Below are positions 20,479 to 23,170 of a stretch of DNA of 64,000 bases, in pieces; positions within the stretch are counted from its first letter, which is position 1, and the number at the start of each line of letters is the position of its first letter. The notes under the pieces were generated by a model that had not been told where the DNA came from, did not search any database, and saw only the letters and a program-made list of their open reading frames with translations. The stretch comes from Burkholderiales bacterium (GTDB lineage: Bacteria > Pseudomonadota > Gammaproteobacteria > Burkholderiales > Burkholderiaceae_C). The position numbers were made by a program, and so were the translations under genes. The DNA is taken from contig JAGWTR010000002.1 in the NCBI GenBank assembly GCA_028868855.1, positions 310,001 through 374,000 of the forward strand, in the 5' to 3' direction.

Positions 20479-21344
20479 CCTTACAGCCCACCCAACCCGA
20501 GATTCGCCCGACCCATGACGCGGTCGATCTACCCCTGGACGACACGGATGACGTTGGCCCGGGGCATGCGCGACCCCGTCGCAAGGGCATTTACATCCTG
20601 CCCAACCTGTTCACGCTGGCCGCCTTGTTTGGCGGTTTCTACGCCATCGTCATGGCCATGAATGGACGTTTCGACCAATCGGCGATCGGCGTGTTCTGCG
20701 CCATGGTGCTGGACAGTCTGGACGGCCGCGTCGCCCGCATGACCAATACCCAGAGCGCTTTTGGCGAGCAGATGGACAGCCTCTCCGACATGGTGTCCTT
20801 CGGTGCGGCGCCCGCGCTCATTGTTTATGAATGGGCCCTCAAGGACCTGGGTAAGTGGGGCTGGATTGCCTCTTTTGTCTATTGCTCTTGCGCGGCATTG
20901 CGCCTGGCGCGTTTTAATACCAACATTGGTGTGGTCGACAAGCGTTTCTTCCAGGGACTGCCCAGTCCGGCAGCGGCCGCCCTGGTGATGGGCCTGATCT
21001 GGGTTGCGACCGATCTGGGGGCGTCGGCTCACAGCCAGCCGTGGCTGGTCTGGCTGGCCTGCGGTTTCACGCTGTATTCGGGGCTGACCATGGTCACCAA
21101 CGTTCCCTTCTACAGCTTCAAGGACATCAGCTTCAAGCGCACGGTCCCCTTTATTGCCATCGTGGCCATCGCGCTGGGCATCGCGGTCATCAACATCCAC
21201 CCGGCCGGCGTGTTGTTCAGTGTTTTCGTGATCTACGGATTGTCGGGCTATGGGGTGTATGTCTGGAAACGCCTCCAAGGCAAGCGGGTTAGCCTGATTT
21301 CCATTTCAACGGATGAGCCCGAAGAGGAAGGGCTGCACCGCTGA
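20475..21344 (+). CDS. pssA: CDP-diacylglycerol--serine O-phosphatidyltransferase
   Basis: CDP-alcohol phosphotransferase motif DSLDGRVARMTNTQSAFGEQMDSLSD; start overlaps the psd stop. Confidence 0.92.
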   Translation: MTLQPTQPEIRPTHDAVDLPLDDTDDVGPGHARPRRKGIYILPNLFTLAALFGGFYAIVMAMNGRFDQSAIGVFCAMVLDSLDGRVARMTNTQSAFGEQMDSLSDMVSFGAAPALIVYEWALKDLGKWGWIASFVYCSCAALRLARFNTNIGVVDKRFFQGLPSPAAAALVMGLIWVATDLGASAHSQPWLVWLACGFTLYSGLTMVTNVPFYSFKDISFKRTVPFIAIVAIALGIAVINIHPAGVLFSVFVIYGLSGYGVYVWKRLQGKRVSLISISTDEPEEEGLHR

Positions 21345-21386: not shown

Positions 21387-21395
21387 TGCTATATT
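21387..21395 (+). promoter_or_regulatory. Candidate extended -10 promoter element TGCTATATT
   Basis: TGN immediately upstream of TATATT; predicted transcription start about 21402. Confidence 0.45.
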
Positions 21396-21402
21396 CATTC
21401 GC

Positions 21403-21459
21403 ATGACGATCTTCAACGCCAAACTACTACGACTACTAGGAGTGCCTCGGGCGCGTTGA
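21403..21459 (+). CDS. leuL: Putative leu leader peptide MTIFNAKLLRLLGVPRAR
   Basis: 18 codons, four Leu codons all CUA (cta cta cga cta cta), followed by an intrinsic terminator upstream of leuA. Not in the ORF track because of its size. Confidence 0.75.
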   Translation: MTIFNAKLLRLLGVPRAR

Positions 21460-21500
21460 TCGCTGTCGTCTGTACATATGTACCTTCGCTGAACTTTCGC

Positions 21501-21540
21501 AAAACGGCCCGCCAGCACTGCACGCGGGCCGTTTTGTTTG
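21501..21540 (+). terminator. Intrinsic terminator/attenuator upstream of leuA
   Basis: AAAACGGCCCGC - 11-nt loop - GCGGGCCGTTTT GTTTG, 12-bp stem. Confidence 0.88.
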
Positions 21541-21628
21541 GCAACAGTCTTTCGAGGTCAAGCCAACCTAGCAGCCCCCGCGCTGAGGTAGGCGCCCTGA
21601 CTCACTGACCTGTCCCACGGAGACCACC

Positions 21629-23170
21629 ATGACCGACAAACTCATCATTTTCGATACCACCTTGCGCGACGGCGAACAGTCGCCTGGCGCCGCCATGACG
21701 CGCGAAGAAAAACTGCGCATTGCCCGCCAGCTGGAGCGACTGAAGGTAGACGTGATCGAAGCTGGTTTCGCAGCGTCGTCCAACGGTGACTTCGAAGCCG
21801 TCAAGGCCATCGCCGAGGCCATCAAGGACTCCACGGTGTGCTCATTGGCCCGTGCCAACGATCGCGACATCAGCCGTGCCGCTGAAGCCTTGAAGGCCGC
21901 CAACTCGTCGCGCATCCATACCTTCATCGCCACCAGTGCCTTGCACATGGAAAAGAAGCTGCGCATGTCACCGGAACAGGTGCTGGAGCAAGCTCGTCTG
22001 TCCGTCCGTTTTGCGCGCAACCTCACCAGCGACGTCGAGTTCTCGGCCGAAGACGGCTACCGCTCCGACATCGACTACTTGAGTCGCGTGATCGAGGCCG
22101 TGATTGCCGAAGGCGCGACCACCATCAACATCCCTGACACCGTCGGCTACGGCATTCCCGAGTTGTACGGCAACTTCATCAAAACCCTGCGCGAACGCGT
22201 GCCCAACTCTGACAAGGCAATCTGGTCGGTGCACTGCCACAACGACCTGGGCATGGCCGTGGCCAACTCCCTGGCCGGCGTCAAGATTGGCGGGGCTCGC
22301 CAAGTCGAGTGCACCATCAACGGTTTGGGCGAGCGGGCCGGCAATGCCGCGCTGGAAGAGGTCGTCATGGCCGTGCGCACCCGTCGCGACTATTTCGGTC
22401 TGGACAGTCGCATTGATGCCACCCAGATCATGCCGGCCTCGCGACTGGTCTCGCAGACCACCGGTTTTGTCGTGCAACCCAACAAGGCCGTGGTCGGGGC
22501 CAACGCCTTCGCGCACGCCTCGGGCATCCATCAAGATGGCGTCCTCAAGGCCCGCGACACCTACGAAATCATGCGCGCCGAGGACGTGGGCTGGGCCGCC
22601 AACAAGATCGTGCTGGGCAAGCTTTCGGGCCGTAACGCATTCAAGCAGCGTTTGCAGGACTTGGGCATCGACCTCGGCTCGGAAGCCGAAGTCAACGCCG
22701 CTTTCGCCAAGTTCAAGGAACTGGCCGACCGCAAGAGCGAAATTTTTGACGAAGACATCATCGCCTTGGTCGGTGATGAAAGCGTGACCAGCGAGCAGGA
22801 GCACTACCGCCTGCTGGCCTTGTCACAGCACTCGGAGATGGGGGACAGGCCGCAGGCCAGCGTAGTGTTCGCGGCCGGCGCAACAGAGCATCAGGCGCAG
22901 AGCGATGGCAATGGCCCAGTGGACGCCAGCGTCAAGGCAATTGAGTCGGTCGTGAAAAGTGGCGCGGAAATCGTCCTCTACTCGGTGAACGCAATTACCT
23001 CGGGCAGCACAGAATCCCAAGGAGAGGTGACCGTGCGGCTGCAACACAGCGGGCGCGTGGTCAATGGGGTCGGAGCTGATCCGGACATCGTGGTGGCATC
23101 TGCAAAAGCTTATCTGGCGGCCTTGAACAAGCTGCACAGCAAGTCAGAGCGAGTTGCCGCACAAGGGTGA
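21629..23170 (+). CDS. leuA: 2-isopropylmalate synthase
   Basis: [66 protein letters not shown]. Confidence 0.98.

Follow-up and report, generated by a model that had tools for sequence, protein, structure and literature searches.

The interval between pssA and leuA in the DNA analysed here very probably holds a ribosome-mediated attenuator that senses charged tRNA-Leu, has its own promoter between the two genes and acts on a leaderless mRNA, as judged from the sequence, comparison with relatives and modelled RNA folding. The window is the whole stretch that was analysed, 64,000 nucleotides of a contig from a Burkholderiales bacterium, and all features described below are on its + strand. A first-pass annotation of the window had proposed a leu leader peptide with an attenuator upstream of leuA. 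The comparative evidence supports that reading: family-wide conservation extends to the ORF, its leucine codons, the terminator and the antiterminator that competes with it.

The leader ORF and its promoter

The upstream gene, pssA, ends at 21344 and is co-directional with leuA (21629-23170), which was identified as a bacterial-type 2-isopropylmalate synthase by NCBIfam TIGR00973 (693 bits, cut-off 599). The ATG at 21629 proposed as the leuA start was confirmed and is preceded by a ribosome-binding region, CACGGAGACCACC, at 21614-21628. The ilvC gene of the source genome is on a different contig from leuA. Direct reading of the sequence also bore out the small ORF, here named leuL (21403-21459), which opens with ATG at 21403 and runs for 18 codons to the stop TGA at 21457-21459. 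The predicted leader peptide, MTIFNAKLLRLLGVPRAR, is conserved in 75 leuA upstream regions, and the alignment with family relatives that the first-pass annotation had recommended revealed conservation of both the small ORF and its leucine codons, CUA above all.

The putative regulatory codons CUA CUA CGA CUA CUA are present at 21424-21438 as first described, and the short ORF is thus rich in codons for the end product, with four CUA among 18 codons. The expectation that CUA would be rare was also borne out. Codon usage of the source genome was taken from 12 window genes, in which CTA accounts for 2.3% of 615 leucine codons; at that frequency the chance that all four leader leucine codons (4/4) are CTA is about 3e-7. 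Over the 75 leaders CTA makes up 53% of 339 leucine codons, compared with 0.4% of the 2198 counted in the leuA genes of those species; at least one CTA is present in 75/75 leaders and at least two in 69. This bias is consistent with CUA being the leu control codon of greatest sensitivity (Carter et al. 1986, discussed in PMC1183508). The Salmonella leu leader likewise carries rare CUA control codons, and CUA is the choice that theory finds most suitable (PMC1183508). Leaders of the same type in close relatives contain leucine runs such as CTG CTA CTA CTT CTA. The run in the window is broken by CGA (Arg) at 21430-21432; genus relatives L083 and L085-L089 have five unbroken leucine codons, and one base change from CTA to CGA would explain the arginine codon.

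The first-pass description was incomplete in that it overlooked the apparently leaderless nature of the ORF and the extended -10 element, TGCTATATT (TGn TATATT), at 21387-21395. The box TATATT at 21390-21395 has TGC in front and is followed by 7 nt and then the ATG at 21403, with no recognisable -35 element. Leader comparison indicates that this spacing is general. When 72 leaders were re-detected by peptide and terminator only, with the promoter not used, the pattern TGnTAnnnT ended 6-8 nt 5' of the ATG in 71 of them, compared with 1 of 574 other ATGs in the same regions. The base directly 5' of the leader ATG is C in 62/75, and a Shine-Dalgarno (SD)-like tetramer was found upstream of 0/75 leaders versus 67/75 leuA genes. 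The leader thus lacks an SD motif and has a -10 box positioned for a start at the AUG. From the usual distance of 6-7 nt after a -10 box, transcription is predicted to start at the A of the ATG or one base earlier, at a C-A initiator (21402-21403), and the most likely 5' end of the leader mRNA is its own AUG. A consensus promoter scan of the window region returned no -35/-10 promoter; since the scan requires a -35 element, it missed this one.

The lack of a -35 element in the scan would also fit a leucine attenuator in which ribosomes translate the leader on a longer transcript, begun upstream or by read-through from pssA, instead of on a leaderless mRNA. Such read-through may exist, as leuA follows pssA in the same direction and many relatives have ilvC still further upstream. 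This version is nonetheless improbable, since no leader has an SD-like motif, the -10 box keeps its spacing of 6-8 nt from an ATG preceded by C, and a fixed distance between the -10 box and the ATG would be needless if transcription started elsewhere.

Terminator and antiterminator

An intrinsic terminator stands between the leader ORF and the structural gene (21499-21539). The hairpin first placed at 21501-21535, with its T-rich tail, was found by direct reading as the core AAAACGGCCCGC / GCGGGCCGTTTT (21501-21512 / 21524-21535) followed by TTTTGTTT. Counting flanking pairs, the stem is 14 bp, with arms at 21499-21512 and 21524-21537 and a loop at 21513-21523, and the U-rich tail follows. A consensus terminator scan allowing loops of 3-8 nt reported none at the leader because the actual loop, 11 nt, is longer than 8. 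Folding and compensatory changes support the stem: over 45 sequences, 24 cells were changed on both sides, and the covariation score was 0.232 versus 0.118 in shuffles, with 0/500 shuffles as high. The covariation check recommended in the first-pass annotation therefore gave a clear answer for the terminator; that for the antiterminator was weak, its core being nearly invariant.

The antiterminator, which had been left open, was resolved in silico as a pairing of 21441-21457 with 21503-21519, and the short CGGGC/GCCCG match noted at the outset proved to be the core of the structure predicted by folding. The antiterminator 5' strand lies within the leader ORF, at its end, where AGUGC (21441-21445), CGGGC (21448-21452) and CGUU (21454-21457) are predicted to pair with GCACU (21515-21519), GCCCG (21507-21511) and AACG (21503-21506), respectively. 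AACG and GCCCG belong to the terminator 5' arm and GCACU to the terminator loop. The palindrome GTACATATGTAC at 21472-21483 forms a small hairpin (GTAC-ATAT-GTAC) within the loop of the antiterminator; close relatives retain the GTAC stem of this hairpin and vary in its loop.

Pairing was evaluated by placing a stalled ribosome at each leucine codon in turn and folding the RNA left exposed downstream of it, as far as the base before the terminator 3' arm. For stalls at leucine codons 1-3, pairing of the terminator GCCC to the leader end reached P>0.5 in 85-89% of species, a share that was lower for leucine 4; a ribosome on the stop codon gave terminator formation in 99% of species. For the window the pairing probabilities at leucines 1, 2, 3 and 4 were 1.0, 1.0, 0.99 and 0.02. 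The mean antiterminator probability of 0.874 exceeded both nulls, in which relatedness among the sequences is still contained: synonymous recoding gave a mean of 0.508 (highest of 20 replicates 0.633) and dinucleotide shuffling a mean of 0.595 (highest 0.715). These in silico results point to an antiterminator that is mutually exclusive with the terminator and is set by ribosome position.

Covariation within the antiterminator is weak because the core helix hardly varies; only 2 cells were changed on both sides. Permuting partners within the two leader groups gave p = 0.07 and 0.31, and the significance reached by the pooled set alone is due to the two groups themselves. In L006 and L010 the leader core is altered to CGCGC and the terminator region has a matching GCGCG. 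Duplex energies between leader end and terminator arm were not significant against shuffles for single leaders (median z -0.7, 6/75 below 0.05), because all of the sequence is GC-rich, and folding with synonymous recoding was used instead. Folding of the untranslated leader gave no clear hairpin hiding the leader end, and the antiterminator probability without a ribosome had a median of 0.44. The default state is uncertain given this mixed fold, and a protective 1:2 hairpin is not claimed.

In leaders ending PRAR the last eight codons are fixed at nearly all positions, third positions included, the exceptions being the third bases of a Pro codon, where the base is unpaired, and of one Arg codon. 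The peptide ends HGRRR, NGRSW, HGQVW and HGRDV differ, yet GGGC is kept in the RNA of all. These data bear on the idea that the leader peptide, or the short RNA left by termination, has a further role in trans beyond attenuation, for which peTrpL/rnTrpL of Sinorhizobium meliloti, with the same leaderless small-mRNA design, is a precedent (PMC7298713). An additional role of this kind is unlikely, as the residues at the peptide end track antiterminator pairing and not a fixed peptide.

In the proposed leucine attenuator, RNA polymerase would begin at or beside the leader AUG and a ribosome would load straight onto the 5' AUG. When leucine is ample the ribosome would clear the rare CUA codons, reach the UGA at 21457 and cover the end of the leader ORF, allowing the terminator at 21499-21537 to form and transcription to end before leuA. 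When leucine is scarce it would stall at CUA codons 1-3 and leave 21441-21457 free to pair with 21503-21519; the terminator 5' arm would then be occupied and the polymerase could enter leuA. Of this scheme, the data show the anatomy, the conservation, the codon bias, the -10/ATG spacing and a pairing potential above the nulls; where transcription begins, that the ORF is translated and that leucine exerts control are predictions.

Distribution in the family and beyond

The comparison covered the leuA loci of 80 relatives and 30 loci from a genus search. A leucine-rich leader followed by a GC-rich hairpin was present in the 75 leuA upstream regions analysed above. In 11 more loci (L007, L019, L023, L039, L043, L044, L050, L052, L066, L067 and L068) the leader is about 1.8-1.9 kb upstream of leuA, and in most of them a second 2-isopropylmalate synthase gene with LeuA2-type motifs lies between leader and leuA. 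In such tandem loci a single attenuator would control two non-orthologous isopropylmalate synthases. A covariance model made from 45 leaders matched 186 of 201 family genomes and 109 of 115 genera, nearly always as a single copy; in the source genome it found one copy and otherwise weak partial matches only.

About half of the sampled members of the genus are without the leader, which indicates that leuA can do without it. The whole interval is lost in, for example, L099, L106, L109 and L110. L108 and L111, of the same genus, keep the extended -10 element and the terminator with the leader ORF between them deleted, and are apparently attenuator fossils. A degenerate copy in L073 has a leucine-poor leader, MQASSLRLNLSSSGRSG, and a terminator without a recognisable -10 box. 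It was also considered that the leader might occur only where leuA is separated from ilvC; this was rejected, as many relatives with ilvC about 2 kb upstream keep the leader.

The absence of the leader in some genus members that have pssA close to leuA, together with the position of the hairpin about 155 bp after pssA, could suggest that the hairpin is a mere pssA terminator, followed by an independent leuA promoter, and that the small ORF is incidental. This is very improbable given the conserved leucine-rich peptide, its extreme CUA bias, the conserved promoter and antiterminator pairing above the nulls; moreover, several loci carry the element before a second leuA-type gene instead.

An order-wide search with the covariance model gave strong matches only in the family of the source and in family f9. 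In f9 and some members of the source family the downstream gene is of the other 2-isopropylmalate synthase type: L133, L134, L135 and L136 (f9), as well as L118 and L131, have the same leader before a leuA_yeast/PRK03739-type synthase, indicating that the switch was retained across a change of enzyme type.

In other families many leuA genes were found to have, upstream, a leucine-rich ORF (uORF) with a TATA(T/G)T box 6-8 nt before its ATG, in 15 loci plus L177-L204 and others, a count biased upward since the -10 criterion was part of the selection. The loci with putatively leaderless uORFs are L150-L167, L177-L188 and L194-L204. Recurrent peptide endings are LLLRPAR, LLLRLAR and ARLPR. Most of these loci have no evident intrinsic terminator and are C-rich and G-poor after the stop (36% C, 16% G), which suggests a Rho-dependent or translational output. 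The promoter-locked leaderless ORF in f22 and in Burkholderia-like members of f31, often ending LLLRPAR or ARLPR, is likewise without an obvious intrinsic terminator and has a C-rich, G-poor stretch behind it. Intrinsic terminators are used by the family of the source, f9 and some genera of f31. In the last, L189-L192 have leaderless leaders with CTA codons, for instance one ending GGLLGRQVGSRAR, and a strong intrinsic terminator, with arms CGCCCCGGC...GCCGGGGCGTTTTG in L189; they are perhaps an independent intrinsic-terminator version. It is a tentative but quite plausible proposal that leaderless leuL is an old control of leuA throughout the beta-proteobacteria, in which the sensor has been conserved and the output device exchanged.

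Comparison with known systems

A search of the leader against Rfam 15 found no family above threshold. With cmscan at E up to 5 only Thr_leader and P17 were listed, RF00512 being unmatched, and none of six loci from other families reached threshold in an Rfam search. The Thr_leader (RF00506) hit, 23.1 bits against a threshold of 55, came mostly from the GC-rich terminator. That family has Thr/Ile codons where the present leader has Leu, and the leader is not a member.

In the open-access literature no beta-proteobacterial leu attenuator was found; the searches recovered actinobacterial leuA leaders, Sinorhizobium trpL and Corynebacterium ilvB. The abstract of Vitreschak et al. 2004 reportedly names gamma- and alpha-proteobacteria. 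A large survey with Rfam models, with Burkholderia and Ralstonia among the bacteria covered, concluded that attenuators for amino acids may be gamma-proteobacterial in origin with very few transfers (PMC3766115). The comparative data mark the present element as a genuine leucine attenuator, strongly conserved and of known principle, of which the lineage and the architecture, a putative leaderless start with the leader end as antiterminator, are undescribed in the open-access literature searched. It would place leucine attenuation in about 93% of the genomes sampled from a large beta-proteobacterial family, outside Rfam coverage, and allow leucine control to be annotated in hundreds of genomes. 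The element would also offer a natural case for studying how initiation at a 5' AUG keeps pace with RNA polymerase across a decision window of about 120 nt.

Among actinobacteria, a pseudoknot has been proposed for a leuA element (PMC1262725). The start site of the leaderless Corynebacterium ilvB leader was mapped to the leader start codon (PMC5784534, PMC4046766), whereas that of the putative C. diphtheriae leu leader, MNRANLLLLRRGGSQA, is not assignable. Both are similar to the present leader in encoding a peptide before branched-chain amino acid genes and differ in being actinobacterial and unrelated in sequence. The S. meliloti trpL attenuator transcript starts at the leader ATG (PMC7298713), as is predicted here; it differs in using Trp instead of Leu, in being alpha-proteobacterial and in sequence and target. 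The enterobacterial Leu_leader (RF00512), as in Salmonella, resembles the present element in having a leucine ORF with rare CUA codons and a terminator and antiterminator before leuA. Unlike RF00512, the beta-proteobacterial element has no SD motif, is apparently leaderless and appears to use the end of the ORF itself as the antiterminator 5' strand.
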